Of a stretch of DNA of 64,000 bases, positions 9,225-29,971 are shown piece after piece; within the stretch, counting starts at the first letter, position 1, and each line of letters opens with the position of its first letter. A program made the position numbers and the translations under genes. This DNA comes from Xanthobacter aminoxidans (lineage in GTDB: Bacteria; Pseudomonadota; Alphaproteobacteria; Rhizobiales; Xanthobacteraceae): contig NZ_JAMJXC010000005.1 of NCBI RefSeq assembly GCF_023571765.1, positions 62,001 to 126,000 on the forward strand, in the 5' to 3' direction. The notes beneath the pieces are model-generated. The model was not told the DNA's origin. It saw only the letters and a list, made by a program, of their open reading frames with translations, and did no database searches.

Positions 9225-10169
9225 ATGGCGATGATCGGCATCCTGATCTTCCCGGATTTCCAGCTTCTGGACGCATCGGGCCCGGCATCGGTGTTCGAGA
9301 TCGCGCGCCGCCTGGTTCCCACCGCGCCGAACGTGCAGATGATCGCCGCACAGCCCGGGCCGGTCCGCAGCTCCTGTGGCGTGGAGGTGGTGGCCTCCAG
9401 CCTCAAGTCGGCCAAGTCCATCACGACGCTCGTCGTCGCCGGCGGGCTGGGGGTCGAGGCCGCCATCGACTGCCGGACGACCCTCGCCTTCGTCCGCCGC
9501 CATGCCACGCGTGGCGGGCGGGTGGCGAGCGTGTGCTCCGGCGCCTATGTCCTGGCGGCGGCGGGACTGCTGGACGGCCGCAAGGCAACGACCCACTGGT
9601 GCCGCACCCAGGATTTCGTCTCCCGCTATCCAAAGGTGCGGCTTGATCCCGATCGCATCTTCCTGCGCGACGGCAACGTCTGGACCTCTGCCGGCATCAC
9701 CGCCGGGATCGACCTCGCGCTGGCCATCGCCGCGGAGGAGCACGGCGATGCGGTTGCAAAGGACATCGCCTGCCAGCTGGTGCTCTACCATCGCCGCAGC
9801 GGCGGGCAGTCGCAATTCTCCTCGCTGCTGGAACTGAAGACCCCGAACGGACGGTTCGGCACCCTGCTCACCTGGGTTCGGGAGCATCTGGACAAGCCGC
9901 TCACCGTCGACATGCTGGCCGACCGGGCGGGGCTGAGCCCCCGCCATTTCGCGCGCATTTTCACCGCCGAGACCGGGACGACGCCCTCCAAGGCCATAGA
10001 GCGCTTGCGCCTGGAAGTCGCGCGAGAGTACGTGCAGTCATCTTCGGACCCCATCGAACGCGTCGCTGAAGTGACCGGCTTTCGCGATCCGGAGCGCATG
10101 CGCCGCGCCTTCGTCCGCGCCTTCGGACAAGCCCCGCAGTCGCTGCGGCGAGCGGCTCGGACCATTTAG
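9225..10169 (+). CDS. GlxA-family transcriptional regulator (DJ-1/PfpI domain + AraC HTH), second copy
   Basis: 314 residues. DJ-1/PfpI-like domain at about 1-180 (SVCSGAYVLAAAG nucleophile elbow, then GITAGIDLALA) and an AraC-type DNA-binding domain at about 210-310, ending with DPERMRRAFVRAFG. Architecture is the same as that of the protein encoded at 351-1346, and both stand divergent to an isonitrile-hydratase-like gene, giving the block a mirrored appearance. The ATG at 9225 and one at 9231 are both usable; the second overlaps the TGA of a 11-residue frame that starts within the GTAGAATGTC word. Likely an activator or repressor of the adjacent PfpI gene; ligand unknown. Confidence 0.9.
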   Translation: MAMIGILIFPDFQLLDASGPASVFEIARRLVPTAPNVQMIAAQPGPVRSSCGVEVVASSLKSAKSITTLVVAGGLGVEAAIDCRTTLAFVRRHATRGGRVASVCSGAYVLAAAGLLDGRKATTHWCRTQDFVSRYPKVRLDPDRIFLRDGNVWTSAGITAGIDLALAIAAEEHGDAVAKDIACQLVLYHRRSGGQSQFSSLLELKTPNGRFGTLLTWVREHLDKPLTVDMLADRAGLSPRHFARIFTAETGTTPSKAIERLRLEVAREYVQSSSDPIERVAEVTGFRDPERMRRAFVRAFGQAPQSLRRAARTI

Positions 10170-16826: not shown

Positions 16827-17981
16827 ATGCATGGAGTCTGCGTCCAGATGCCGAACGAAAAGCGTGCGGGCCCTGCATCGAATGCGAAGGCCGCATCGCG
16901 GAACCGTGCCGTGCTTCAGCTGTTTGAGCGCAACTGCTCGGTGGGCCGCACGATCTCGATCATGTCGGATGCGTGGAGCTTCCTGGTTATCCGCGAGGCG
17001 TTCTTCGGCGCGCGTCGCTTCGAGGAGTTCCGCACCGCGCTCGGGCTGCCCCGCGGCACCCTGGCGGAACGGCTCAAGCGCCTCACGGTGCGGGGAATTT
17101 TTCGGCAGGTCAGCTATTCGGCCAGTTCCAGCCGGGCGGAGTATCACCTCACCCGCTGCGGGATGGAGCTTTATCCGAGCTTCGTCGCGCTCATCCGGTT
17201 CGGTGACCGCTGGCTGTCGGGTCCAGAGGGGCCGCCGCTCAAGCTCATCCACGCCACCTGCGGGCAGGAATGCGAACCCTATGTGGCGTGTTCCCACTGC
17301 CTCGGCGAGGTGAAGGCGAACCGCGTGCGCTACCGCGACGGGCCGGGCGCCGGCCGCACTCCCGTGGAACCTGCGAAACGGGCGCGGCGCACCGCGGAAT
17401 CCGCGAGCTTCTCGCGTGGGCGCCCGAGCTCGGTGTCGCGCTCCCTGGAGATCATCGGCGACCGCTGGAGCTTTCTCATCCTGCGCGAGGCATTCTTCGG
17501 CGTGCGGCGCTTCGACCGGATGCAGACCGAGCTGCGAATCGCGCCCAACATCCTCACCGAGCGGCTCGGCCGGCTCGTGGCGCGCGGGGTATTCGATCGG
17601 GTCAAGTATCAGGATCTGCCCGAACGCTACGAATATCGGCTGACCGAGATGGGCAAGGACCTCTACGGCGCGTTCATCACCATGGGCGCCTGGGGCGACC
17701 GCTGGCTGTCCTCCGGCGATCCGCCTCTCATCCTGACCCATCTCGACTGCGGCCACGATTTTTCCGCCGTTGTCGTCTGCGACAAGTGTCGCAAGCCGAT
17801 CGAGGCGCCGGACATGCGCTACCGCCTCAATTACGATCCTGCGCGGTATGGCGCCCCGCAGGCCGGCGACCGGATGGTTGCGGTTCTGGTGCCGGGCGAG
17901 GATGCGCCGGCGCAGGATGTGACCCGGCCGGAGAAGCAGGCGGCCCCGCGCCGGGGCCGCCCGGCGCGCGCTACTTCTTGA
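16827..17981 (+). CDS. Tandem HxlR-family regulator with two winged-helix domains
   Basis: 384 residues, twice the usual HxlR length. Repeat 1 covers about residues 35-165 and repeat 2 about 200-330; both have the wHTH core (DAWSFLVIREAFFGARRF and DRWSFLILREAFFGVRRF). The sensor-type Cys37 in NCSVGR exists only in repeat 1; repeat 2 has Ser. Each repeat ends in a possible zinc ribbon: Cys145, 149, 155, 158 in the first and Cys308, His310, Cys318, Cys321 in the second. HxlR proteins normally dimerise; here one chain may act as a pseudo-dimer. A second ATG at 16848 is an alternative start with GGAG upstream. Its stop overlaps the convergent binding-protein gene by 11 bases. Probable regulator of the adjacent CoA-ester and hydroxylase operons (inference). 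Confidence 0.87.
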   Translation: MHGVCVQMPNEKRAGPASNAKAASRNRAVLQLFERNCSVGRTISIMSDAWSFLVIREAFFGARRFEEFRTALGLPRGTLAERLKRLTVRGIFRQVSYSASSSRAEYHLTRCGMELYPSFVALIRFGDRWLSGPEGPPLKLIHATCGQECEPYVACSHCLGEVKANRVRYRDGPGAGRTPVEPAKRARRTAESASFSRGRPSSVSRSLEIIGDRWSFLILREAFFGVRRFDRMQTELRIAPNILTERLGRLVARGVFDRVKYQDLPERYEYRLTEMGKDLYGAFITMGAWGDRWLSSGDPPLILTHLDCGHDFSAVVVCDKCRKPIEAPDMRYRLNYDPARYGAPQAGDRMVAVLVPGEDAPAQDVTRPEKQAAPRRGRPARATS

Positions 17982-19212
17982 CCAGCGGGCACTGGCTCTG
18001 GGACAGCGGGCGGAACGCCTGCTCGCCCGGGATGACCTGCACCAGCTTGTAATAGTCCCACGGGCCCTTCGATTCCGACGGGCTCTTCACCTGATAGACG
18101 TACATGTCGTGGATGAACCGGCCATCCGCGCGAATGTAGCCGTTCTTGGCGAAGAAGTCGTTGACCTTCATCTCGCGCATCTTGGCCATGACGGCCTGCG
18201 CGTCGTCGGTCCCCGCCGCCTCGACGGCCTTCAGATAGTGCATGGTGGAGGAATAGTCGCCCGCGTCGCCCATGTGCGGCTTGCGGCCCATGCGCGCCTC
18301 GAAGCGCTTGGAGAAGGCGCGGGTCTCGTCGTCCCGATCCCAGTAGAAGGCATTGGTGAGCACGAGGCCCTGGGCATTTTCGAGACCCATGGAATGGATG
18401 TCGGTGATCCACACTAGAAGCCCGGCAAGGGACTGCTTGCCGGACTGCGTCAGCCCGAAATCATGCGCAGCCTTGACCGCATTGATGAAGACGGTACCGG
18501 AGCCGGCAACCGCGATCACGTCCGCGCCCGATCCCTGCGCCTGAAGCATGAAGGAGCCGTGATCGAGCGTGTTGATGGGGTAGCGGACCGAGCCCACCAC
18601 GTTGCCGCCGCCGGCCTTCACCACCGACGCGGTGTCGGCCTCCAGGGCGTGGCCGAAGGCGTAGTCCGCGGTCAGGAAGAACCAGTTCTTCTTGCCCTGC
18701 TTGATGAGCGCATTGCCGGTGCCGACGGCCAGCGCGTAGGTGTCGTAGGCATAATGGATCGAGTTCGGCGTGCACATGTCGCCGGTGAGGCGCGAGGAGC
18801 CCGAGCCGTTGATGATGGCGATGCCGTTCTTCTCCTTCGCCACCCCGGCGACGCCGATGGCCACGGCCGAATTGATGAGGTTGGCGATCATGTCGACCTT
18901 GTCGACGTCGAACCATTCCTTCGCCTTGGCGATGGCGACTTCGGTCTTATTCTGGTGGTCGGCGACGATGACCTCGATGGGCTTGCCGAGGACCTTCCCG
19001 CCGAAGTCCTCGACGGCCATCTTCACCGCCGTGACGGATCCCTCGCCCGCTTCGTGGGAGAACTGCCCCGACATGTCGGTGAGAACACCGATCTTCACCA
19101 CGTCGTTGGAAATCTTGCCGGCGGCTGGCGGAGCCGCGGGGCTCTGGGCATAGGCCGGCAGCGACATGGCAAGCGCGGCGCAAATCGTCGCCACGTGTGC
19201 GATCCTGGACAT
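17971..19212 (-). CDS. ABC transporter substrate-binding protein, branched-chain-amino-acid type (orphan)
   Basis: 413 residues. Signal peptide with hydrophobic core to SLPAYAQ (residue 23). Mature start KISNDVVKIGVLTDMSG is the LivJ-like first strand, and the C-terminus reads AFRPLSQSQCPLVKK, the signature it shares with the proteins at 3390 and 63329. No membrane components are adjacent. It diverges from the thioesterase operon across 349 bases and converges on the HxlR gene with an 11-base overlap. RBS GGAGGAAG precedes the ATG. Its place suggests that it captures the substrate of the neighbouring CoA-dependent pathway, with a transporter encoded elsewhere. Confidence 0.88.
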   Translation of the reverse strand: MSRIAHVATICAALAMSLPAYAQSPAAPPAAGKISNDVVKIGVLTDMSGQFSHEAGEGSVTAVKMAVEDFGGKVLGKPIEVIVADHQNKTEVAIAKAKEWFDVDKVDMIANLINSAVAIGVAGVAKEKNGIAIINGSGSSRLTGDMCTPNSIHYAYDTYALAVGTGNALIKQGKKNWFFLTADYAFGHALEADTASVVKAGGGNVVGSVRYPINTLDHGSFMLQAQGSGADVIAVAGSGTVFINAVKAAHDFGLTQSGKQSLAGLLVWITDIHSMGLENAQGLVLTNAFYWDRDDETRAFSKRFEARMGRKPHMGDAGDYSSTMHYLKAVEAAGTDDAQAVMAKMREMKVNDFFAKNGYIRADGRFIHDMYVYQVKSPSESKGPWDYYKLVQVIPGEQAFRPLSQSQCPLVKK

Positions 19213-19561
19213 CCGTCTTCCTCCTGCATGATCCGGCGCGCCTTTCCGGCTTAGCGTCCGGCTGGTCTGTCCCTGCGCCGACCGATGTCTTTCATAAATG
19301 GACGTTTGAATTGCCGCGTCTCGGTCGCCCTATCCTGCAATGCAGTATGGACTGGTGCTTGCTGCAGGAAATGCTGTCGAAGGCCGGGCAGTTGGTCCCG
19401 TGTCGGTCGGTGCGGCATTGACAACAGCACTTTCAGTCTATTAATGCAAGTTACGAATTGATCAGCGGAACCGATCACCGCGGTCGCCATCGAGCGGCCT
19501 GGAGCGGCGGGCAAAAGCCGCAGGTGCCTGCCCGCGGGCAGTCCTTGGAGGGAGGCGTCAG
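19213..19561 (+). other. Divergent control region between binding protein and thioesterase operon
   Basis: 349 bases, no gene. Contains the promoter module listed at 19418-19454 and an 11-base palindrome CTGCA-A-TGCAG at 19335-19345. The last 70 bases are GC-rich leader ending in GGAGGGAGG before the GTG start at 19562. Confidence 0.6.
19418..19454 (+). promoter_or_regulatory. Promoter module of the CoA-ester operon (shared with 27857-27893)
   Basis: TTGACA at 19418-19423 is a consensus -35; ATTAAT at 19440-19445, 16 bases on, is a fair -10. The block AGTCTATTAATGCAAGTTAC (19435-19454) matches AGTCTAATAATGCAAGTCAC on the minus strand at 27876-27857 in 18 of 20 positions, with the same 11-base distance from TTGACA. 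Two independent operons therefore carry the same promoter plus probable operator. The block is not palindromic. Confidence 0.65.
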
Positions 19562-20029
19562 GTGAGCGCACGCACAACGCCGGACCGGAGGCAGGACTAC
19601 CCACACTTCCGGGAAATCGCGACGCGGTGGATGGACAATGACGTCTACCAGCACGTGAACAACGTGGTTTACTACTCGTTCTTCGATACGGCTGTCGGCC
19701 ATTACCTGATCGAGACGGGCGCGCTGGATGTCCAGGCAAGTCCTGTCATCGGGCTCGTGGTGGAGACGCGCTGCCAGTATTTCTCATCCCTGTCGTTTCC
19801 CTCGATGGTGCATGCGGGGCTGCGCGTCGGGCGTCTCGGCACCACCAGCGTGCGATACGAGATCGGCATCTTCCGCGATGCGGACCAAGTCGCGGCCGCG
19901 CAGGGGCATTTCATCCACGTCTATGTGGACCGCGCCACCAACCGGCCTGTTCCACTCCCGGACAAGCTGCGCCAAGTTCTTGCGCCCCTCGTCGTCGACG
20001 AGGCGGGCACCGGGGCCAAGGAGGGCTGA
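19562..20029 (+). CDS. Acyl-CoA thioesterase, hotdog fold (4HBT/YbgC type)
   Basis: 155 residues, GTG start 3 to 12 bases after GGAGGGAGG. Single hotdog domain. The catalytic segment is TRWMDNDVYQHVNNVVY, with the Asp and HVNN pattern of 4-hydroxybenzoyl-CoA-thioesterase-like enzymes, near residues 20-36. It hydrolyses an acyl-CoA to the free acid. First gene of a five-gene run (thioesterase, crotonase, MBL hydrolase, SDR, CoA ligase) with gaps of 0 to 47 bases, driven by the promoter module at 19418. A thioesterase and a ligase in the same operon suggest control over the CoA pool or processing of product esters. Confidence 0.85.
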   Translation: MSARTTPDRRQDYPHFREIATRWMDNDVYQHVNNVVYYSFFDTAVGHYLIETGALDVQASPVIGLVVETRCQYFSSLSFPSMVHAGLRVGRLGTTSVRYEIGIFRDADQVAAAQGHFIHVYVDRATNRPVPLPDKLRQVLAPLVVDEAGTGAKEG

Positions 20030-20803
20030 ATGGCGGATATCGAAGTCGCCGTCGAGGACCACATCGCGACTGTCACGCTCAATCGTCCGGCGCAGCGCAA
20101 TGCCATGACGCTTGCCATGTGGCGGGACGTGGCGCGGATATTTTCCGAACTCGGCGCGGACCGTGACGTGCGGGCGATCCTGCTCGCGGGGGCTGGCGCG
20201 GATTTCAGCGTCGGCGCCGACATTTCCGAATTTCCGGTGGTGCGCCATACGCTTGAGCAGAGCGTGGACTACGAGGTCGCGGTGGATGCGTCGTCCGACG
20301 CCATCGCCGGGGCGGGCAAGCCGACCATCGCCGTGGTCTCCGGCTATTGCCTCGGCGGGGGCTGCCACCTCTCCATGTCCTGCGATTTCCGTATCGCCGC
20401 GCCAACCGCCATTTTCGGCATTCCGGCGGCGAAGCTGTCCATCGTCTACGGCGTGCGCAGCACCCAGCGCCTGCTGTCCCTCGTCGGGCTCACGCAGGCG
20501 AAGCGCATTCTCTACACTGCCGATCGCATCCCCGCCGGGGAGGCCCTGCGCATCGGCTTCGCGGACGAGATGGCCGACGACCCGATGGCTGCGGCCCGGA
20601 GCCTTGCTGGACGCATCGCGGCCAATGCACCGCTCTCGGTGAGCGGGGCGAAGTTCATCCTCGATGGCCTCGCCATGGGGCCCGGCGCGCTCGATCTCGA
20701 TGCCGCCCAGGCGCGCATCGACGGCGCATCCCGCAGCTTCGACTATCAGGAGGGGCGCAACGCCTTCGCCGAGAAGCGCCCGCCGCGCTTCGAGGGGCGG
20801 TGA
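20030..20803 (+). CDS. Crotonase-fold protein with both catalytic glutamates replaced
   Basis: 257 residues, ATG directly after the thioesterase stop. Crotonase fold: oxyanion segments near residues 62-70 (DFSVGADISEF) and 104-111 (CLGGGCHLSMSCD). In enoyl-CoA hydratase the position after GGGC or GGGN is Glu (Glu144 of rat crotonase); here it is His. The second catalytic Glu, in GxPE, is also absent: the segment reads FGIPAAKLS. Simple hydration of an enoyl-CoA by the standard mechanism is therefore unlikely. Other crotonase chemistries (decarboxylation, C-C hydrolysis as in 6-oxocamphor hydrolase, isomerisation) use different residues and are candidates. The rest of the fold is intact, so decay is not indicated. 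Confidence 0.8.
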   Translation: MADIEVAVEDHIATVTLNRPAQRNAMTLAMWRDVARIFSELGADRDVRAILLAGAGADFSVGADISEFPVVRHTLEQSVDYEVAVDASSDAIAGAGKPTIAVVSGYCLGGGCHLSMSCDFRIAAPTAIFGIPAAKLSIVYGVRSTQRLLSLVGLTQAKRILYTADRIPAGEALRIGFADEMADDPMAAARSLAGRIAANAPLSVSGAKFILDGLAMGPGALDLDAAQARIDGASRSFDYQEGRNAFAEKRPPRFEGR

Positions 20804-20828
20804 GCGGTCCCGCACGGGAGGAACAGCC

Positions 20829-21590
20829 ATGAAGATGCACGTGCTTTCGGGCGGCCGCCTCCGGATGAAGCGGCATATCTACCAGCCTGACGCCGACCGC
20901 AGCGAGAGCATCGAGCTGCCGGTTGCCTCCATCCTGCTGCGCCACGCCCAGGGCAACGTCCTGTTCGACACGGGCTGCCACCCGTCCGTGGTGGACGACG
21001 CCGAGGCCCGCTGGGGCGGGATGGCGCGGGCCATGACGCCGATCATGGGGCGCGAGGACAATGTGGTCTCCCAGCTCTCCTGCGTCGGCCTCGGGGCCGA
21101 CGACATCGACGTGGTGGTGTGCTCGCACTTCCATCCCGACCATTGCGGCTGCAACGGCTTTTTCCGCAAGGCGACGGTTGTCGTGCACGCGGCGGAACTC
21201 GCCGCGGCGAAGGCGGAGAATGCAGCTTCCGCGGGCTATCTCCCGGTGGAGTGGGATCAGGGCAATCCGCTTGAGCTGATCGAGGGGGAGAAGGATCTTT
21301 TCGGCGACGGCCGCATCACCCTCATCCCGTTTCCCGGCCACACGCCGGGCCTCACCGGCGCGCTCGTCGCGCTGGACCGCGACGGCCCCTTCCTGCTGGC
21401 CTCGGACGCGGTGAGCGTGCGCACCAGCCTCGACCCCGGCGTGGTGCCGAAGAACACCTGGAACGTCGATCTGCACAACCGCTCCATCGCAGAAATCCGC
21501 AGGATCGAGGCGGGCGGCGCCACCGTCCTGTGCGGCCATGACGATGCCCAGTGGCAGACCCTGCGGAAAGGGGCGGACGCCTACGAGTGA
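20829..21590 (+). CDS. Metallo-beta-lactamase-fold hydrolase, lactonase-like
   Basis: 253 residues from the ATG at 20829 with GGGAGGA just upstream; a longer frame starting at 20664 only overlaps the crotonase gene. The zinc motif is SHFHPDHCG (HxHxDH) near residue 103, followed by GHTPG, the bridging Asp in LLASDAVS, and the final His in LCGHDD. This is the N-acyl-homoserine-lactone lactonase (AttM/AiiA-like) branch of the superfamily, which opens lactones or other cyclic esters. In this operon it may open a lactone intermediate; a role in quorum quenching is possible but not suggested by neighbours. Confidence 0.82.
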   Translation: MKMHVLSGGRLRMKRHIYQPDADRSESIELPVASILLRHAQGNVLFDTGCHPSVVDDAEARWGGMARAMTPIMGREDNVVSQLSCVGLGADDIDVVVCSHFHPDHCGCNGFFRKATVVVHAAELAAAKAENAASAGYLPVEWDQGNPLELIEGEKDLFGDGRITLIPFPGHTPGLTGALVALDRDGPFLLASDAVSVRTSLDPGVVPKNTWNVDLHNRSIAEIRRIEAGGATVLCGHDDAQWQTLRKGADAYE

Positions 21591-21637
21591 GGCGCGGGCC
21601 CGTTTCCATCCATCATCTCACGCAAGGCGGATTTTCC

Positions 21638-22390
21638 ATGGATCTCAATCTGAAGGGCAAGGTTGCGCTGGTCACCGGCGGCGCGCGCGATGTGGGGCGC
21701 GAGATCTCGCTCGCCCTCGCCGCCGAGGGGGCGACGGTCGCGCTCAACTATCGCAATTCGGCGGAAGAGGCGCAGGCGGTCGTGGATGAAATCCGCGCGC
21801 GCGGCGGCGAGGCGAAGGCCTACAAGGCGGACGTGGCGGATTTTGCCGCCGTCAAGGCGATGGTCGAGGCCATCGTCACCGATTTCGGCGGCCTGAATAT
21901 CGTGGTCAACAATGCCGGCCTCGCCATCCGGCAGAAATTCACCGACTCCACCGAGAAGGAGTGGAAGGCGCAGATCGATACCTGCCTCTATGGCGCCATC
22001 CATCTCGCCCACGCGGCCGTCCCGCATCTGGAGAAGGCGGGCGACGGGCGCCTCATCGCCATCGTCGGCGACTCCTCGCGCGTGGGCGAATCCGGCCTCG
22101 CCATCGTTGCGGCGGCACGGGCAGGCACCATCGCCCTCATGAAGTCGCTGGCACGGGAGCTGGGCCGCAGCGGCGTGACGGCCAACACCGTGTCCCTCGG
22201 CCTCGTCGAGACCGCCCATGACCGCTCGTGGGTGGAAGCCAACCGCGACAAGCTTACCAAATTCTATCCGCTGCGCCGTCTCGGCCAGCCGGAGGACATC
22301 GCACCCACAGTTGCCTTGCTCGCCTCGCCCAAGGGCTCGTGGATCACCGGGCAGGTGATCTCCATCTCCGGTGGTTTCTGCATGGTGTGA
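21638..22390 (+). CDS. SDR-family protein lacking the catalytic Tyr and Lys
   Basis: 250 residues from the ATG at 21638 (AAGGCGG upstream). Rossmann fold with TGGARDVG in place of TGxxxGxG, and NNAGLAI near residue 92, so a nucleotide site is present. The classical YxxxK catalytic pair should fall in the segment IVAAARAGTIAL: Tyr is replaced by Val157 and Lys by Arg161, and the Ser is shifted. The C-terminus (ITGQVISISGGFCMV) is normal for the family. It may bind NAD(P) without oxidoreductase activity, or catalyse something else, for example dehydration or aldol cleavage. Position between the lactonase-like and CoA ligase genes. No sign of frameshift, so it is a maintained protein. Confidence 0.82.
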   Translation: MDLNLKGKVALVTGGARDVGREISLALAAEGATVALNYRNSAEEAQAVVDEIRARGGEAKAYKADVADFAAVKAMVEAIVTDFGGLNIVVNNAGLAIRQKFTDSTEKEWKAQIDTCLYGAIHLAHAAVPHLEKAGDGRLIAIVGDSSRVGESGLAIVAAARAGTIALMKSLARELGRSGVTANTVSLGLVETAHDRSWVEANRDKLTKFYPLRRLGQPEDIAPTVALLASPKGSWITGQVISISGGFCMV

Positions 22391-22434
22391 GGACAGCCGC
22401 GCACAAGAACGCGGTGATCAATGGGGAGGAACGG

Positions 22435-23973
22435 ATGCTCAAGGCCGATCTGATCGCTCCGGTACCGGAGCTGTTGCGGCGGCATGCGACGGAACGCGGC
22501 GCGAAAGTCGCGTTCCGCGATACGCGGCGCGCCGTCACCTATGCCGAGCTGGAGCGGCGCACGGCGAACCTCGCCGGCCATCTCGCCGGGCTCGGCGTCG
22601 GGGCCGGGGACCGGGTGGCGATCCTGCTGCCGAACTGCGTCGCTTGGGTGGAGGCCTGCCTTGCCATCGTCCGGGCCGGGGCCGTCGCGGTGCCCATCAG
22701 CGCCGATGCGGCGCCGGGCGAAGTCTCCTACCGCCTGTCCGATGCCGCATGCCGGATCGTCATCACCACCGCCGCCCGCGCGGAGATGGTGGAGACATTG
22801 CGCGGCGAGGCGCCCAGCGTCGCCGGCCTGCTATTGGTGGACGCCCCCGCCGGCGACCTGCGCAGTTTCGAGGCGCTGGCGGAGCTGCCGCCCGCCACGC
22901 CTGCTCGCGATCTCGCAGATATCGATGCGGCGTCCTTCATCATCTACACGTCCGGGACGACGGGGCGCGCGAAGGGCGTGCTGCTCACCTGCCGCAGCAT
23001 GCTGTGGGTGACGGCGGCGTGCTGGAGCTCCGTGGTGGGCCTCGGCAGCGAGGACAATGTGCTCTCGCCGCTGCCCCTGTTCCACTCCTACGCCCTCAAC
23101 TTCTCGGTGCTGTCCATCCTCGCCACCGGTGCGAGCGAATACATTCTGGAGAAATATTCGACGCGCGAGGCCATGCGCCTGCTCGAGACTGGCGACTTCA
23201 CCGTCTTCCCCGGCGTGCCCACCATGTTCCATTATCTGATGGAGGCGGCGCAGGCGGAAGGGCGCGACACGCTGCCGGGCCTGCGCGTCTGTGTCTCCGC
23301 CGGAGCCATCATGCCGGCGACGCTCAACACCGCGTTCGAGGGGGCCTTCGGCGTGCCGCTGCTGGATGGCTACGGCATCACCGAGACCTCCACGATGGTG
23401 ACGATGAACGCCGCCTCATCCTCGCGCGTCATGGGATCGTGCGGCCTCCCCCTGCCGGGCGTGGCGCTGCGCATCGTCGATCCGGCCAGCCTGCGCGATC
23501 TTGATGCGGGACAGGAGGGTGAGCTGATCGTGCGCGGGCCGAATGTCATGCTCGGCTATCACAACAAGCCGGAGGAGACGGCCAAGGCCCTGCGCAACGG
23601 CTGGTACCATACCGGCGACCTCGCCCGCGCCGACCGCAACGGCTTCGTCACCATCACCGGACGGCTGAAGGAGCTGATCATCCGCGGCGGGCAGAACATC
23701 GCGCCAGCAGAGATCGAGGAGGTGGTGCTGCTGTTCTCCACCGTGCTCGATTGCGCGGTCGCGGGCGTGCCCCATCCGCAACTCGGCGAGGTGCCCGCGC
23801 TGTACGTGGTTCCGCGCGATGGCAGTTTCGATGCCGACCTGCTGCTCGACCACTGCCGCCATCACCTCTCATCCTACAAGGTGCCCCATGTGGTGCATCA
23901 GGTGGACGAGATCCCGCGCACCGGCTCCGGCAAGATCATCCGCTTCCGGCTGAAGGAGATGGTGCAGTCTTAG
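22435..23973 (+). CDS. Class I adenylate-forming acyl-CoA synthetase
   Basis: 512 residues from the ATG at 22435, five bases after GGGGAGGA; the frame is open further upstream but has no family similarity there. ANL-superfamily motifs in order: A3 IIYTSGTTGRAKGV near residue 172, A5 DGYGITETSTM near 310, A7 YHTGDLARAD near 392, A8 GRLKELIIRGGQNIAP near 410, and the catalytic Lys in the C-terminal segment TGSGKIIRFRLKE. It activates a carboxylic acid with ATP and CoA; substrate class (medium/long chain, aromatic) cannot be read from the sequence. Last gene of the operon that starts at 19562. Two hairpins follow its stop. Confidence 0.9.
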   Translation: MLKADLIAPVPELLRRHATERGAKVAFRDTRRAVTYAELERRTANLAGHLAGLGVGAGDRVAILLPNCVAWVEACLAIVRAGAVAVPISADAAPGEVSYRLSDAACRIVITTAARAEMVETLRGEAPSVAGLLLVDAPAGDLRSFEALAELPPATPARDLADIDAASFIIYTSGTTGRAKGVLLTCRSMLWVTAACWSSVVGLGSEDNVLSPLPLFHSYALNFSVLSILATGASEYILEKYSTREAMRLLETGDFTVFPGVPTMFHYLMEAAQAEGRDTLPGLRVCVSAGAIMPATLNTAFEGAFGVPLLDGYGITETSTMVTMNAASSSRVMGSCGLPLPGVALRIVDPASLRDLDAGQEGELIVRGPNVMLGYHNKPEETAKALRNGWYHTGDLARADRNGFVTITGRLKELIIRGGQNIAPAEIEEVVLLFSTVLDCAVAGVPHPQLGEVPALYVVPRDGSFDADLLLDHCRHHLSSYKVPHVVHQVDEIPRTGSGKIIRFRLKEMVQS

Positions 23974-24010
23974 CCCTGACACGGCTGCATCGACCTTCCC
24001 GTGGAGCGAC

Positions 24011-24057
24011 GGGCGCCGGATCCTCAGGGTTCGGCGCCCGATCCGCTTCTGCGGATC
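24011..24057. terminator. Tandem hairpins between convergent operons
   Basis: Two perfect stems back to back: GGGCGCCG (24011-24018) with CGGCGCCC (24032-24039), then GATCCGC-TTCT-GCGGATC (24040-24057). They lie between the stop of the CoA ligase (23973) and that of the Mo-hydroxylase large subunit (24074). No strong T run, so termination may be only partly intrinsic. Confidence 0.5.
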
Positions 24058-24073
24058 ACAGCCGGAGCCTGTT

Positions 24074-26458
24074 TCAAAGGCGCGCCGAGCCTCGCGCGGC
24101 CTGCACCAGCCGGAACAGGCGATCCGGCGTTACCGGCAGGGTGTCCACCTCGATGCCGAGCGGCGCGAGGGCGTCCGACACCGCATTGGCGATGGCCGCC
24201 GGCGCGCCAATGGTGCCGCCCTCTCCCATGCCACGGAACCCGCCGATATTGTTCGGCAGGTCCGCCTCCACATGGAGGATCTCGATCTCAGGCATGGTGC
24301 TGGCGATGGGTACGAGATAGTCGGCGAGGCTCGCGGTCAGCAATTGGCCTCCCTCATCGTGAACCACTTCCTCCAGCAGGGCGGCGCCGATGCCCTGGGC
24401 GACGGCGCCGTGTACCTGCCCGTCGACGATGAGTGGATTGATGATGCGCCCGCAATCCTCCGCCACGGCGAAGCGCTTCACCGTCACCGCAAAGGTCGCG
24501 GGATCGACCTCCACCATGGCAAGATGGGTGGAGGCGCAGGCCGTGCCGAGATAGGGGTCGTAGCTCTCGGAGCCGACGAGATCCTCCCGCTGCTCGTGGG
24601 GGATGCGCCCCATCTGCGCATAGACCGCGTGGGCGACTTCCCGGAAGGTCATTGTCGCATTGGAGGAGCGGGCGCGGATGATGCCGCCTTCGGCCTCAAG
24701 GTCGTCCACCGGAACGTCCATGAGGAAGGCGGCGGCCTTCAGCACCTTCGCCTTCACCACGCGCGCGGTCTTGGTGGCGGCGCCGCCGCCGAGCACCGCC
24801 GACCGGCTGGCATAGGTGCCTGTGCCCATGGGCACGAGGGCGCTGTCGCCGTGCTGGATCTCGATGTCCTCCATGCGGCAGCCGAGCTCGTCGGCGACCA
24901 CCTGGGCGAGTGTCGTCTCCAGCCCCTGGCCGTGGGAGGAGATGCCGAACGCGGCCGTCACGGCACCGGTGGCATCGATGCGGATGGAGGCGGTCTCCGT
25001 GCCTGTGTTGATGGGCATGCCCGGCGCGACGGCGATGCGCGAGCCGATGCCCGTCAGCTCCGCATAGCTTGCGAGCCCGATGCCCACCCATCGCCCCTCG
25101 GCCCGGGCCGCGTCGCGCTGGCGCAGGAGGGCAGGGTAGTCCACCAGCTCGCAAACGCCCTGAAGGCATTCCTGGAATGCTGAGCGGTCCCAGATGATGC
25201 CGGAGCCGGTGCGGTAGGGAAATTCCTCGGCCGTCACCAGGTTGCGGCGCCGGATTTCGGAGGGGTCCATGCCGAGCTTGCGGGCCGCCATGTCCATCAG
25301 CCGTTCCATGGCGAAGGTGGAGGAGGGGCGGCCGACGCCGCGATAGGGGCCGGTGGGCGGCTTGGGGGTGAGCACGCCGCGCACCCGGCCGCGATAATGC
25401 TCCATGCGGTAGGGGCCGGGTAGGAAGCTCACCACCTGCACGGGTTCCAGCGCGCCGGTCCATGGGTAGATGGAATAGGCGCCGATATCGCCGATCACGT
25501 CCGCCCGGAGGCCGAGCAGGCGCCCGTCCGCATCCACCGCCAGCTCCGCCTCGATGGTTTCATCGAAGGCCTGGCTCATGGCGGTGAGGTCTTCCATGCG
25601 GTCGGCGACGAACTTCACCGGCCGCTCCAGCTTGCGCGCGAGCACGCAGACCAGCATCTCCTCATGGTTCAACGAGCCCTTGCCGCCGAAGCTGCCACCC
25701 ACGTCGGGCGCCACCACCCGTACCCGGTTGCCCGGAAGGTCGAGGCAGGAGCCGAGCACGTCGCAGATGATGCCGGGGATGTTGGTGGAGGAATGCAGGG
25801 TGAGGGCCTGTCGCCGCCGGTCCCACTCGGCCAGGTAGGAGCGGGTTTCCATGGGCATGGGCGTCTTGCGCGTCATGCGGAAGCGCCCCTTCACCACCAC
25901 TGCCGCCGCGGCGATGGCCGCGTCCACGTCGCCGCGGGCGAAGGTGCGGGAGATGATGACGTTGGTACCGGCCTCGTCATGCAGGAGCGGGGCGTCATCC
26001 ATAGCTGCGTCGTCTTTTGAGACGGCGACGGGCAGCGGCTCGTAATCGATGGAGATCAGCTCCAACGCGTCCTCGGCGGCGTATCGGCTTTCGGCGACCA
26101 CCGCGACCACGGGCTCGCCGACATAGCGCACCTTGCCCTCGGCGAGGGGGCGGAAGGGCGTCGCGTAATAGCCCTTCATGCGGGAGGTGGGGATGGCCGG
26201 CTTGAAGTCTCCGGCGATGTCTCCCGCATCGAAGATCGCGACCACGCCGGGCACCGCGAAGGCCTCCCCGACATCGATGGACCGGATGCGCGCATGGGGC
26301 TGGTCGCTGCGCAGGACCGCCACATGCAGAAGGCCCTGCGGGGCCATGTCGTCCACATAGCGGCCCGAGCCGGTCAGCAGGCGCGGGTCCTCGGTGCGCT
26401 TGATGCGCTGGCCGACCAGCCGGGGGCGCATCTCCACGGAAGCGTCGAAGGCGGTCAT
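24074..26458 (-). CDS. Mo-hydroxylase large subunit, xanthine dehydrogenase family (form II type)
   Basis: 794 residues. Begins with the small Ald_Xan_dh domain (KRTEDPRLLTGSGRYVDD), then the two molybdopterin-binding domains. The active-site loop reads GPYRGVGRP, the form II version of the CoxL signature, not the AYRCSFR of true CO dehydrogenase, so it hydroxylates an organic substrate. QGxE-type GHGQGLET binds the cofactor, and the catalytic Glu is in GMGEGGTIGAPAAI near the C-terminus. Partners are the 2Fe-2S protein (26455) and FAD protein (26937), both joined by ATGA overlaps, in the order FAD, Fe-S, Mo from one promoter. Likely hydroxylates a ring carbon or aldehyde of the substrate handled by the adjacent CoA pathway; exact substrate unknown. 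Confidence 0.9.
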   Translation of the reverse strand: MTAFDASVEMRPRLVGQRIKRTEDPRLLTGSGRYVDDMAPQGLLHVAVLRSDQPHARIRSIDVGEAFAVPGVVAIFDAGDIAGDFKPAIPTSRMKGYYATPFRPLAEGKVRYVGEPVVAVVAESRYAAEDALELISIDYEPLPVAVSKDDAAMDDAPLLHDEAGTNVIISRTFARGDVDAAIAAAAVVVKGRFRMTRKTPMPMETRSYLAEWDRRRQALTLHSSTNIPGIICDVLGSCLDLPGNRVRVVAPDVGGSFGGKGSLNHEEMLVCVLARKLERPVKFVADRMEDLTAMSQAFDETIEAELAVDADGRLLGLRADVIGDIGAYSIYPWTGALEPVQVVSFLPGPYRMEHYRGRVRGVLTPKPPTGPYRGVGRPSSTFAMERLMDMAARKLGMDPSEIRRRNLVTAEEFPYRTGSGIIWDRSAFQECLQGVCELVDYPALLRQRDAARAEGRWVGIGLASYAELTGIGSRIAVAPGMPINTGTETASIRIDATGAVTAAFGISSHGQGLETTLAQVVADELGCRMEDIEIQHGDSALVPMGTGTYASRSAVLGGGAATKTARVVKAKVLKAAAFLMDVPVDDLEAEGGIIRARSSNATMTFREVAHAVYAQMGRIPHEQREDLVGSESYDPYLGTACASTHLAMVEVDPATFAVTVKRFAVAEDCGRIINPLIVDGQVHGAVAQGIGAALLEEVVHDEGGQLLTASLADYLVPIASTMPEIEILHVEADLPNNIGGFRGMGEGGTIGAPAAIANAVSDALAPLGIEVDTLPVTPDRLFRLVQAARGSARL

Positions 26459-26937
26459 GTCAGCGGCCCCCGTTCGCGCGCCAGCTCACGCACCGCATCC
26501 ACGATGTGCTGATAGCCCGTGCAGCGGCAGATGTTGCCGGAGAGCGCCTCGCGGATCGCGTCGTCGGTCTCCAGCGGGTGGTGGCGCAGCATGTCGGTGA
26601 TGGTCATCAGGAAGCCCGGCGTGCAGAAGCCGCACTGGAGGCCGTGGTGCTCGCGAAAGGCCTGCTGGACGCGGCCGAGATCGCTCATCCGGCCGAGCCC
26701 TTCCACCGTCTCGATGGTCGCGCCGTCTGCCTGAATGGCTAGGGTCAGGCAGGAGCGGGCGCTGCGCCCGTCCATAAGAATGGTGCAGGCGCCGCACACG
26801 CCGTGTTCGCAGCCCACGTGCGTGCCTGTCAGGCCAAGCTCGTGGCGCAGGAAATCGCTCAGCAACAGCCGCGCGTCCACCGCGCGGGTATAGGTGAGCC
26901 CGTTGATGGTGAGCGTGATGGTGGCCTGGTCCTGCAT
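26455..26937 (-). CDS. 2Fe-2S subunit of the Mo-hydroxylase (CoxS/XdhC-like small subunit)
   Basis: 160 residues from the ATG at 26937, which overlaps the FAD-subunit stop (ATGA). A start 13 codons upstream is possible but lies inside that gene. Plant-type ferredoxin cluster: CEHGVCGACTILMDG with a fourth Cys in RSCLTLA. The second cluster uses QCGFCTPGF and ICRCTGY in the C-terminal helical domain. These eight cysteines carry the two 2Fe-2S clusters that pass electrons from the Mo centre to FAD. Its own stop overlaps the large-subunit start by four bases. Confidence 0.93.
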   Translation of the reverse strand: MQDQATITLTINGLTYTRAVDARLLLSDFLRHELGLTGTHVGCEHGVCGACTILMDGRSARSCLTLAIQADGATIETVEGLGRMSDLGRVQQAFREHHGLQCGFCTPGFLMTITDMLRHHPLETDDAIREALSGNICRCTGYQHIVDAVRELARERGPLT

Positions 26938-27821
26938 CACGCCGCCCCGCCGGTGGTTTCGCCCGTCCGTTGCCACGCCTCGGCGAGCGCGCGCCGTGCG
27001 AGCGCGCCTGCGAGGTGGCGGCGATAGTCGGCGGAGGCATTGAGATCGGAGTTCGGCTGGATGGCCGCCTGGAGCAGGGCTGCGGCCTCATCGAAGGCCG
27101 CAGGAGTGCCCTCGCGCCCCTCCAGAGCCGCTTCCACGTCTGCGAACCGCAATGCCGTGTCCGCGATGCCCATCATGGCGATGCGTACGTTCCGCATCCG
27201 TCCATCCGCCCGCGCCATGAGCACGGCGATGGCTGCCAGCGCATAGTCGCCATGGCGGCGCGAAAACTCCTCGAATGCCCAGCCCGTGCCGTCCTCGGGA
27301 ATGGCCAGATCGACGGCCACGACCATCTCGTCCGGCTCCAATGCGGTGGAGAGGGAGCCGACCAGAAAGTCCCGTGCCGCCATGGTCCGGTCGCCGCGCG
27401 GGGAAGCGATATGGATCGTGCCGTCGAGCAGCAGCGTCATCATGGGCATCTCGGCGGCGGGGTCCGCGTGGCACACGCTGCCGCAGAAGGTGCCGCGGTT
27501 GCGCACCGTGAGATGCGCCACGTGCTTCATGGCGGCGTGGAGCACCGGGATGTGCCGCGCCACCAGCCCGTCCTCCGCCGTCATGCGGTGGCGCACCAGC
27601 GCGCCGAGGCGCAACACGCCGGCCTCTTGCGTGATGCGGTCGAGGTCCGGGATGCGGTTGATGTCCACGAGGACCGACGGCTTCACGAGGCGAAAATTCA
27701 TCATGGGCATGAGGCTCTGCCCGCCCGCGAGCACCTTCCCGTCGCCGCCCGCGCCCGCAAGCGCCTCCACCGCGTGGGCGATGCTCTCGGCGCGCACATA
27801 GTCGAACCGGGCGGGCTTCAT
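26937..27821 (-). CDS. FAD-binding subunit of the Mo-hydroxylase (CoxM-like)
   Basis: 294 residues. FAD_binding_5 domain with AGGQSLMPMMNFRL (residues 32-45) and the second FAD motif in the segment RGTFCGSVCHADPAAE, where the more usual TxGG is changed to FCGS. A CO-dehydrogenase-flavoprotein C-terminal domain covers residues 175-280. First gene of the hydroxylase operon, starting 45 bases after the -10 of the promoter module at 27857-27893. Divergent from the alcohol dehydrogenase gene (gap 127 bases). Confidence 0.91.
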   Translation of the reverse strand: MKPARFDYVRAESIAHAVEALAGAGGDGKVLAGGQSLMPMMNFRLVKPSVLVDINRIPDLDRITQEAGVLRLGALVRHRMTAEDGLVARHIPVLHAAMKHVAHLTVRNRGTFCGSVCHADPAAEMPMMTLLLDGTIHIASPRGDRTMAARDFLVGSLSTALEPDEMVVAVDLAIPEDGTGWAFEEFSRRHGDYALAAIAVLMARADGRMRNVRIAMMGIADTALRFADVEAALEGREGTPAAFDEAAALLQAAIQPNSDLNASADYRRHLAGALARRALAEAWQRTGETTGGAA

Positions 27822-27856
27822 CGGCGCATTTCCGGCATGTCTGGTTCCGTTCCCTA

Positions 27857-27893
27857 GTGACTTGCATTATTAGACTATGATAGATCGTGTCAA
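27857..27893 (-). promoter_or_regulatory. Promoter module of the Mo-hydroxylase operon (shared with 19418-19454)
   Basis: On the minus strand TTGACA (27893-27888), 16 bases, then AATAAT (27871-27866): a near-consensus sigma-70 promoter. The block AGTCTAATAATGCAAGTCAC spans 27876-27857 and repeats, in 18 of 20 positions and at identical spacing from the -35, the block upstream of the thioesterase operon. The conservation continues past the -10, so a regulator site overlapping the transcription start is likely. Confidence 0.65.
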
Positions 27894-27948: not shown

Positions 27949-29079
27949 ATGAAGATCAAAGCCGCCGTCCTGCGCAGCATGGGCGCGCCGATGCCCTACG
28001 CGCAGAGCCAGCCGCTCCACATCGAGGAGGTGGAGCTGGACCGGCCCGGCCGCGACGAGGTGCTGGTGAAGATCGCGGCGGCGGGCCTGTGCCACTCGGA
28101 CCTTTCCGTCATCAACGGCAGCCGCCCCCGGCCTATGCCCATGGCCATCGGCCACGAGGCGGCGGGTGTCGTGGTCGAGGCCGGCGACGGGGTGGACGAC
28201 CTGAAGCCGGGCGACCACGTGGTCATGGTGTTCATGCCCAGTTGCGGCCATTGCCAGCCCTGCTCGCAGGGCCGCCCCGCCCTGTGCGAGCCCGGCGCGG
28301 TGGCCAACGGCAAGGGCGAACTGCTGACCGGCGCGATCCGCCTGCACGAGGGCGAGGAGACCATCCATCATCACCTGGGATGCTCGGCCTTCGCTGACCA
28401 TGCGGTGGTTTCGCGTCGCTCATTGGTCCGGATAGACAAGGATATCCCCCTCGATGTCGCTGCGCTGTTCGGCTGCGCGGTGCTGACGGGGGTCGGTGCC
28501 GTGGTGAACACGGCCCGTGTGCAGGCGGGCGAGACGGTGGCTGTGGTCGGTCTTGGGGGCGTGGGCCTCGCCGCCGTCCTCGGGGCTCTGGCGGCGGGCG
28601 CCGCGCGGGTGGTCGCGGTGGACCTGTCGCCGGAAAAGCTGCAACTGGCCAAGGACTTCGGCGCCACCGGCGTCGTGGATGCCCGCGCGCCCGATGCCAT
28701 CGAGCAGGTGCGCGCGCTCACCGGCGGCGGGGCCGACTTCGTGTTTGAGTTCGCCGGCTCCGCGCGGGCGCTGGAGAATGCCTACAAGATGACCAAGCGC
28801 GGCGGCACCACTGTCACCGCCGGCTTGCCGCCGCCGGATGCGGTGCTGCCGGTGAACATCGTCAGCCTCGTCGCGGAAGAGCGCACGGTGAAGGGCAGTT
28901 ATATCGGCACCTGCGTCCCGGTGCGCGACGTGCCGCGCTACGTCGAGCTCTACAAGGCCGGCCGCCTGCCCGTGGACCGCCTGATGAGCGGGCGCATCCC
29001 GCTTGAGGACATCAACGAAGGCTTCGACCGGCTGCACGACGGCTCCGTCGTGCGGCTGGTGGTGGACTTCCAGGGCTGA
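27949..29079 (+). CDS. Zinc-dependent alcohol dehydrogenase (MDR family)
   Basis: 376 residues from the ATG at 27949 (GGGAG upstream). Catalytic zinc ligands: Cys in AAGLCHSDL, His-Glu in IGHEAAG. Structural zinc lobe: four Cys in PSCGHCQPCSQGRPALC. Rossmann GLGGVG near residue 200 followed by VVAVDLSPEK, so NAD is preferred. Class III-like/benzyl-alcohol-dehydrogenase-like group. It oxidises a primary alcohol to an aldehyde, which could then be a substrate for the adjacent Mo-hydroxylase. Divergent from that operon; a 23-residue frame and the CoxG-like gene follow it. Confidence 0.9.
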   Translation: MKIKAAVLRSMGAPMPYAQSQPLHIEEVELDRPGRDEVLVKIAAAGLCHSDLSVINGSRPRPMPMAIGHEAAGVVVEAGDGVDDLKPGDHVVMVFMPSCGHCQPCSQGRPALCEPGAVANGKGELLTGAIRLHEGEETIHHHLGCSAFADHAVVSRRSLVRIDKDIPLDVAALFGCAVLTGVGAVVNTARVQAGETVAVVGLGGVGLAAVLGALAAGAARVVAVDLSPEKLQLAKDFGATGVVDARAPDAIEQVRALTGGGADFVFEFAGSARALENAYKMTKRGGTTVTAGLPPPDAVLPVNIVSLVAEERTVKGSYIGTCVPVRDVPRYVELYKAGRLPVDRLMSGRIPLEDINEGFDRLHDGSVVRLVVDFQG

Positions 29080-29182: not shown

Positions 29183-29971
29183 ATGGACATGAGCGGCGAA
29201 CAGTTGATCCCGGCCCCGCGCGAGGTGGTCTGGCAGGCGCTCAACGATCCGGAGATCCTCAAGCTCTGCATTCCGGGCTGCCAGGAGCTGGTGAAAAGCT
29301 CCGACACGCAGATGAGCGCCAAGGTGGTGCTCAAGGTGGGGCCGGTCAGCGCCCGTTTCGAGGGGGCCGTGACCCTTTCGGACCTCGATCCGCCCAACGG
29401 CTATCGCATCAGCGGCGAAGGCCAGGGCGGCATGGCCGGCTTCGCCAAGGGCGAGGCGAGGGTCACGCTTGAGGCGGCCGGGGCGGACACCATCCTGCGA
29501 TACGAGGTCAATGCGCAGGTGGGGGGGAAGCTGGCTCAGCTCGGCGCCCGCCTCATCGACGCGACCGCGAAGCAGATGTCGGGCGCCTTCTTCAAGCGTT
29601 TCGCGCAGGAGATCATCGCGCGCCGGCCTCTCGGACAAGGGGATGGGCCGGCATCGGCTGCCATGCCTCCTCCGCCACTCAGCCCTGCCGCTCCTGTCGT
29701 GCATTCGCTTGGCGCACCTTCTCCCGCAGCGCCTCGGCCCCATGCCACGTCCGCCGGAATGCGCCTCGCCGGGCTCGGTATCTTCGCGGCCGCGCTCGTC
29801 GCTTCCGCCTATTTCCTTTCAGGGGCAGGGGAGCATGGCGGTCGAACGGGAGTCTCTCCCGACTTTTCGGCGGCGGTGATCCTCCTCCTGACGACAGGCT
29901 TGGGATACCTTCTTGGTCGCCTGCAAGGCGTCGTGACGACAGTCGTCACGATCAGGCATGAGGCAAGTTAG
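29183..29971 (+). CDS. CoxG-like SRPBCC protein with C-terminal membrane segments
   Basis: 262 residues. Residues 1-150 are the CO-dehydrogenase subunit G fold (PREVVWQALNDPEILKLCIPG, VKVGPVSARFEG, YEVNAQVGGKLAQLGARL). A proline-rich linker (150-190) is followed by two hydrophobic helices, about 195-212 and 228-247. CoxG recruits or helps mature Mo-hydroxylases at the membrane, so it fits the hydroxylase encoded at 24074-27821 although it is on the opposite strand. GGGAAGGGAG lies upstream of the ATG. Its stop codon overlaps the end of a minus-strand amidase-like fragment by four bases, a tight convergent junction. Confidence 0.85.
   Translation: MDMSGEQLIPAPREVVWQALNDPEILKLCIPGCQELVKSSDTQMSAKVVLKVGPVSARFEGAVTLSDLDPPNGYRISGEGQGGMAGFAKGEARVTLEAAGADTILRYEVNAQVGGKLAQLGARLIDATAKQMSGAFFKRFAQEIIARRPLGQGDGPASAAMPPPPLSPAAPVVHSLGAPSPAAPRPHATSAGMRLAGLGIFAAALVASAYFLSGAGEHGGRTGVSPDFSAAVILLLTTGLGYLLGRLQGVVTTVVTIRHEAS

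Follow-up and report, generated by a model that had tools for sequence, protein, structure and literature searches.

A 19-bp block before two catabolic operons of Xanthobacter aminoxidans, probable operator of a fused double-HxlR regulator

We analysed a 64,000-nucleotide window of Xanthobacter aminoxidans DNA (RefSeq assembly GCF_023571765.1, contig NZ_JAMJXC010000005.1, positions 62,001–126,000), in which a 20-base block stands upstream of two operons—one acting on coenzyme A (CoA) esters, the other encoding a molybdenum (Mo) hydroxylase—and a nearby gene (positions 16827–17981) encodes P0001, a regulator with two HxlR domains in one chain. Genome comparison shows the block to be conserved, specific and linked to the double-HxlR regulator. 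It strongly supports the proposal of an earlier sequence-only reading that the two operons form one regulon, which extends past these operons and has in P0001 a likely regulator that the reading did not name. We consider it very likely that the block is the operator of P0001, which would repress both operons until an inducer releases it. We infer physical binding, pairing of the two halves as a pseudo-dimer, repression rather than activation and the identity of the inducer.

The block in the window and in the whole genome

Direct reading places TTGACA-N11-AGTCTAWTAATGCAAGTYAC twice in the window, as TTGACA-ACAGCACTTTC-AGTCTATTAATGCAAGTTAC on the plus strand (19418–19454) and as TTGACA-CGATCTATCAT-AGTCTAATAATGCAAGTCAC on the minus strand (27893–27857). 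As had been claimed for these 37-base elements, the blocks agree at 18 of 20 positions and the 11-base spacers are unrelated; spacers and flanks of the two operators likewise show no relation to each other. With ≤3 mismatches allowed, the TTGACA-N11-block pattern matched twice in the 64 kb and never in 100 dinucleotide shuffles. Both copies contain −35 and −10 hexamers within the 16–18 bp separation of sigma70 promoters (TTGACA N16 ATTAAT and TTGACA N16 AATAAT), and in these predicted promoters the block likely covers the proposed −10 and the transcription start (Table 1). A palindromic operator was considered and rejected: there is no strong axis, and the best axis and direct-repeat offsets of 9 and 14 bp score similarly low; we therefore claim no half-site model. 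A weaker third site, near the gene for a substrate-binding protein (SBP), also occurs in Xanthobacter sp. YC-JY1 (L055) and has no counterpart in the paralogous cluster described below (L007), in L045 or in Aquabacter (L056). Autoregulation has no support at this locus, where nothing in the 400 bp preceding 16827 scores above 4.3 bits.

The whole genome (G000; 5,823,613 bp in 77 contigs) contains five copies of the 20-mer at ≤3 mismatches—two in the window and three on contig C67—and none of the control read backwards. A looser 18-mer (≤1 mismatch) gave six matches (backward control, one), the sixth being the weaker site at 19304–19285 on the minus strand, which was absent from the sequence-only reading. 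All six are confined to two paralogous regions, the window and 193–212 kb of C67. The C67 region (190000–213000; L006, L007) is a second, diverged catabolic cluster with its own double-HxlR regulator (82% identical to that of the window), transporter and operators; its genes include an SBP gene, a hydratase/hydrolase/dehydrogenase operon and a Mo-hydroxylase operon. The block stands before both of these operons, and the fifth copy before a liv-type ATP-binding cassette (ABC) transporter operon. The genome-wide scan that had been proposed to define the regulon thus found copies that are not scattered, the same site preceding each operon and all five copies of the 20-mer falling in the two related clusters.

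Linkage of block and regulator across genomes

Five of 14 Xanthobacter genomes have the regulator (E ≤ 1e-60) and the same five have the block (≤3 mismatches), an overlap with a probability of 1/2002 if the two were independent; the other nine have neither at these thresholds, and the backward control gave one match, in a different genome. The gene downstream of all 13 genus copies encodes a thioesterase or hydratase, the flavin adenine dinucleotide (FAD) subunit of the Mo-hydroxylase (six copies, always 36 bp on) or LivG. The regulator of Xanthobacter sp. YC-JY1 is 91% identical to P0001; the two sites of G309 lie on different contigs, and site and flanks equal those of X. tagetidis (L057). 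Across 26 whole genomes of relatives, 26 matches (≤1 mismatch) occur in 22 genomes, and 23 of these matches lie, by coordinates, within ±10 kb regulator loci. The remaining three are about 23 kb (G317) and 12 kb (G320) from the regulator and, in G332, a second copy with identical flanks.

We then scanned GTDB genomes with an alignment of the regulator and took the best 80 of 116 confirmed relatives as 80 loci, chosen by regulator similarity only, for a search with a matrix built from eight genus sites (threshold ≥20 bits). This yielded 137 sites in 74 of the 80 loci, compared with one site for the reversed matrix and 0–4 for twenty permuted matrices, and none of the 137 falls inside a named gene match. 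The named downstream gene encodes the SBP (35 sites), the FAD subunit (33), the hydratase (6), the thioesterase (4), LivG (4), the regulator (2) or another protein (4); nothing named lies within range of the other 49. Once the Xanthobacter/Aquabacter loci (L055–L057) are set aside, 71 of 77 loci still hold 131 sites with complete flanks (97 non-redundant by flanks), and the consensus of sites outside these genera is AGTCTAnTWATGCAAGTnA. The flanks mostly carry <0.2 bit, apart from two A/T-rich bases just before the block (0.34 and 0.57 bit) and one base in the −35 region (0.21 bit). Because the matrix itself chose the sites, the information within the block is overstated to some degree; the comparison of counts with controls is unaffected. 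Site and regulator are thus conserved together in five of 14 genus genomes and in 74 of the 80 distant loci, and the block, expected upstream of orthologous operons, was found there in the genus and across alpha- and betaproteobacteria.

These alignments also separate the two parts of the earlier proposal of a promoter plus operator. Conservation beyond the −10 was borne out, extending over the whole 19 bp including GCAAGTnA, and the proposal holds with one correction: what is conserved is the 19-bp putative operator, and the 37 bases do not behave as a rigid module. Among the 97 non-redundant sites, 15 have an exact TTGACA ending 11 bp before the block and 11 have one ending 15 bp before it, a bimodal distance, and the hexamer (≤1 mismatch) lies 8–20 bp upstream in only 47, which leaves roughly half without anything TTGACA-like. 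At either distance the block would cover the −10. A variable −35 distance combined with a block over the −10 fits a polymerase-blocking repressor with its site inside promoters rather than a fixed module. The same observations bear on whether the block is simply a strong promoter that has been conserved (extended −10) and is read by no specific regulator, or a pair of copies left by recent duplication. TTGACA and AATAAT or ATTAAT at 16 bp do resemble a sigma70 promoter, but the conserved 19 bp reach beyond the −10, the block stays constant while the −35 distance varies, and neither in the own genome nor in the 26 relatives was it spread genome-wide over unrelated promoters; at ≤3 mismatches it is absent from the nine genus genomes that lack the regulator, and the unrelated spacers and flanks of operators 1 and 2 argue against duplication. 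We regard this explanation as extremely improbable; chance and a plain promoter were rejected on the basis of the shuffles, the genome count, the permuted matrices and the consensus analysis.

Large plasmids of Bradyrhizobium, Rhizobium, Aminobacter, Agrobacterium and Sinorhizobium (L161–L165) also carry the regulator together with the gene set and operators; of the 20 plasmid records found to contain the regulator, 17 are typed as conjugative. All five plasmid loci looked at, none of which was used for the matrix, have sites of ≥20 bits, and in four of them a site lies 85–165 bp upstream of the regulator gene, an arrangement resembling autoregulation. The 21 control loci with one-unit HxlR relatives (69,678 bp) contained no site of ≥16 bits. 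Among tandem HxlR proteins selected without reference to a site, good sites accompany L014 and L198, and weak ones (about 15 bits) L016 and L017; the second tandem genes in L062 and L064 have no site nearby.

Of 385 genomes of the class, four have the regulator at E ≤ 1e-60 (at most five candidates scored per genome), and only two of these four (G000 and G674) match the block at ≤2 mismatches, a setting that is uninformative (48 genomes match, against about 60 for the backward control). Nine genomes of this survey have a site with ≤1 mismatch and no close match to the regulator. In two of the nine (L192 and L195) a tandem HxlR protein of 29–30% identity is encoded within 3 kb, and the pathway genes are all absent. 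The sites of L192 (G336), at 9814 and 10876, lie one just upstream of the tandem HxlR gene (29%) and one overlapping the end of the matched stretch, and possibly mark a second, different regulon of the same kind. Near-perfect blocks, TGTCTAATAATGCAAGTCAG and AGTCTGATAATGCAAGTCAG, occur in L193 (9788) and L194 (9853–9872), both of moderate to high GC content. In the order, a 34-mer (≤3 mismatches) matched two of 297 genomes, the own genome and G234 (L038); no HxlR was seen among the three open reading frames (ORFs) listed for the latter, and its site is taken for chance.

Several results weigh against the explanation that we favour. In seven of the nine genomes no tandem HxlR was found in the DNA fetched; five of these have a GC content of ≤0.42, but L193 and L194 do not, and there roughly 20 kb around the block contain no tandem HxlR. 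Conversely, L015, L018, L167/L199 and L169/L200 have a tandem HxlR and no site in the DNA searched, six of the 80 loci (some on short contigs) lack a site of ≥20 bits, and the 34-mer is absent from all four genomes of the order with a full-length tandem homologue (42–52% identity). For 69 of the 137 sites there is no TTGACA-like hexamer 8–20 bp upstream, and some may therefore not act by blocking a −35/−10 promoter; the repressor picture may leave room for sites that act otherwise. Finally, because regulator, operons and sites tend to be inherited as a group, their co-occurrence is not independent evidence.

Co-inheritance in most loci of the sites, the regulator and the pathway genes would also fit another reading, in which the block is the operator of a different transcription factor of the same pathway and the tandem HxlR a mere neighbour, and a LysR gene does lie near the window cluster. 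LysR matches, however, occur in only three of the 80 loci, L192 and L195 retain tandem HxlR and sites without the pathway genes, and the position of the site before the regulator gene in four of five plasmid loci resembles that seen in autoregulation. We hold another factor to be quite unlikely and retain P0001 as the probable reader of the block.

The double-HxlR regulator and its proposed action

P0001 belongs to the HxlR family, matching PF01638 with 137.9 bits (cut-off 20.8) in two stretches (145.9 bits for the C67 paralogue). HxlR homodimers have one domain per chain, whereas P0001 and the other members of a 59-row alignment have two; P0001 is a fused sub-type, not a canonical member of the family. 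AlphaFold, run on the 59 sequences, gave two well-modelled winged-helix units (mean pLDDT 78.3, pTM 0.75). The nearest solved structures are HxlR-type winged helix-turn-helix proteins, among them PA1374 (4gcv), PA1607 (2f2e), YodB, HypR and HxlR. None of the 50 matches listed exceeds a TM score of 0.28 by query length, and therefore none covers both halves; pairing of these as a pseudo-dimer is our inference.

Residues of the recognition helices were compared between tandem and one-unit proteins. R76, T78, L79, R82 and L83 in the first head and N241, L243, R246 and L247 in the second are invariant in all 59 tandem proteins, whereas among the 21 one-unit control loci T78 occurs in none of 19 and N241 in none of 20 sequences alignable at the respective head. 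L192 and L195 retain all nine residues, and N241 is lost in L018, a tandem HxlR with no site. Against this, L015 keeps all nine yet has no site in 3.9 kb, and the first head of L198 differs although a site is present. The link between residues and site is thus good, but not perfect. Taken with the counts of sites in loci, whole genomes and controls, the comparison suggests that P0001 would bind a specific operator at its target promoters.

In the mechanism that we propose, P0001 would fold as a single chain whose two winged-helix heads are unequal, making it a built-in pseudo-dimer, and would read the asymmetric 19-bp site. As this operator would cover both the −10 and the start region in sigma70-type promoters, bound P0001 would block RNA polymerase, shutting off the CoA-ester and Mo-hydroxylase operons together and possibly also the SBP gene and the divergent dehydrogenase. 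By analogy with CouR, P0001 would then be released by an inducer, which is most likely either the acid that is transported or the CoA ester of that acid. P0001 could instead be an activator that helps to open the promoter its operator overlaps, as Bacillus HxlR does with formaldehyde: the founder HxlR is described as formaldehyde-activated (PMC7835342) and is called an activator in the PDB, and many sites lack a TTGACA-like −35. In the window, however, the promoters have a perfect TTGACA and their proposed −10 and start are overlapped by the block, which, judged from position, is the geometry of a repressor; activation therefore appears unlikely, and repression is the action that we favour.

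Gene set and comparison with known systems

The features of the window are collected in Table 1. The ligase, hydratase, hydrolase, short-chain dehydrogenase and Mo-hydroxylase score below every NCBIfam cut-off shown; for the hydrolase, the best models, all under cut-off, are lactonases (AttM, AiiA and pyridoxolactonase).

Table 1. Operators, promoter elements and genes in the window (aa, amino acids)
Feature	Position	Strand	Remarks
Regulator P0001, fused double-HxlR, 384 aa	16827..17981	+	Two winged helix-turn-helix units, each with Cys-rich tail; candidate operator reader
ABC transporter substrate-binding protein (Peripla_BP_6)	17971..19212	−	
Weaker third site CGTCCATTTATGAAAGACAT, 18.5 bits	19285..19304	−	Near edge 72 bp from SBP-gene start codon
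−35 hexamer TTGACA	19418..19423	+	Proposed −10 ATTAAT at 19440–19445, within operator 1; 16-bp spacer
Putative operator 1, 19-bp core AGTCTATTAATGCAAGTTA	19435..19453	+	Upstream of CoA-ester operon; also in gap to divergent SBP gene
4HBT-type thioesterase	19562..20029	+	First gene of CoA-ester operon
Enoyl-CoA hydratase/isomerase family	20030..20803	+	
Metallo-beta-lactamase fold hydrolase	20664..21590	+	Longest ORF; true start probably further downstream
Short-chain dehydrogenase	21551..22390	+	
AMP-forming acyl-CoA ligase	22228..23973	+	Longest ORF
Mo-binding subunit of Mo-hydroxylase	24074..26458	−	
[2Fe-2S] subunit of Mo-hydroxylase	26455..26976	−	
FAD subunit of Mo-hydroxylase	26937..27821	−	First gene of operon; start 36 bp past operator in 6/6 genus copies
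Putative operator 2, 19-bp core AGTCTAATAATGCAAGTCA	27858..27876	−	Upstream of Mo-hydroxylase operon; also in divergent gap to Zn-alcohol dehydrogenase
−35 hexamer TTGACA	27888..27893	−	Proposed −10 AATAAT at 27871–27866, within operator 2; 16-bp spacer
Zn-dependent alcohol dehydrogenase	27949..29079	+	Divergent from Mo-hydroxylase operon; proposed start codon, longest ORF from 27877
CoxG family protein	29183..29971	+	Member of gene set recurring in other genomes

In many relatives (for example, L074, L081 and L086) the genes of both window operons run together on one strand. The recurring set—regulator, binding protein, LivGFHM, thioesterase, CoxG, hydratase, Mo-hydroxylase, lactonase-like hydrolase, short-chain dehydrogenase and ligase—spans Afipia and Rhizobium to Burkholderiales; its annotations in the plasmid records are generic, and we found no published description of it as a catabolic gene set in the open-access literature. 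In the Rhizobium, Aminobacter and Agrobacterium plasmid loci, genes for an iron alcohol dehydrogenase and a succinate-semialdehyde dehydrogenase follow the set, which makes a lactone intermediate in the pathway plausible. X. tagetidis (L057) grows on thiophene-2-carboxylic acid (PMC6624754), a lead to the substrate only.

We give about even chances to a broader proposal, that a natural single-chain HxlR pseudo-dimer whose two reading heads are specialised has kept one asymmetric 19-bp operator with hardly any change from alpha- to betaproteobacteria, even in homologues of 29–30% identity, and controls a CoA-dependent pathway not yet described (transport, CoA ligase, Mo-hydroxylase, lactonase-like hydrolase and thioesterase), perhaps for a heterocyclic or lactone-forming acid. 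If so, the fixed polarity of the site would enable a single protein to act differently on either side of a divergent promoter. With an operator and a regulator predicted for a catabolic gene set that recurs in soil- and plant-associated bacteria, the regulon, inducer and substrate become directly testable, and a natural fused helix-turn-helix protein that would read an asymmetric site offers a way to ask how each head recognises its part of the site.

P0001 shares the HxlR domain, present twice, with the HxlR/DUF24 (MarR-like) regulators HxlR, YodB, HypR, QsrR and CatR. Those are one-domain chains, whereas P0001 joins two diverged domains, each with a Cys-rich tail; its putative operator is without a strong palindromic axis, and the one-unit relatives tested lack its key residues T78 and N241. 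CouR (PMC4737184) represses a CoA-ligase pathway and is released by the CoA ester of that pathway, which is the model proposed for P0001; it is a homodimeric MarR-type repressor of CoA-dependent aromatic catabolism, whereas the ligand of P0001 is only proposed. We found no natural tandem or double HxlR, and no record of one 17-base form of the motif, in the open-access literature, outside which most subscription papers lie; three papers that mention two HxlR concern formaldehyde sensing, judged by their titles and the opening of their abstracts. The engineered sensor HxlR-cpYFP-HxlR (PMC7835342) likewise places two HxlR units in one chain, but it is artificial and made from two subunits of one HxlR dimer, whereas P0001 is natural and its units are unlike.

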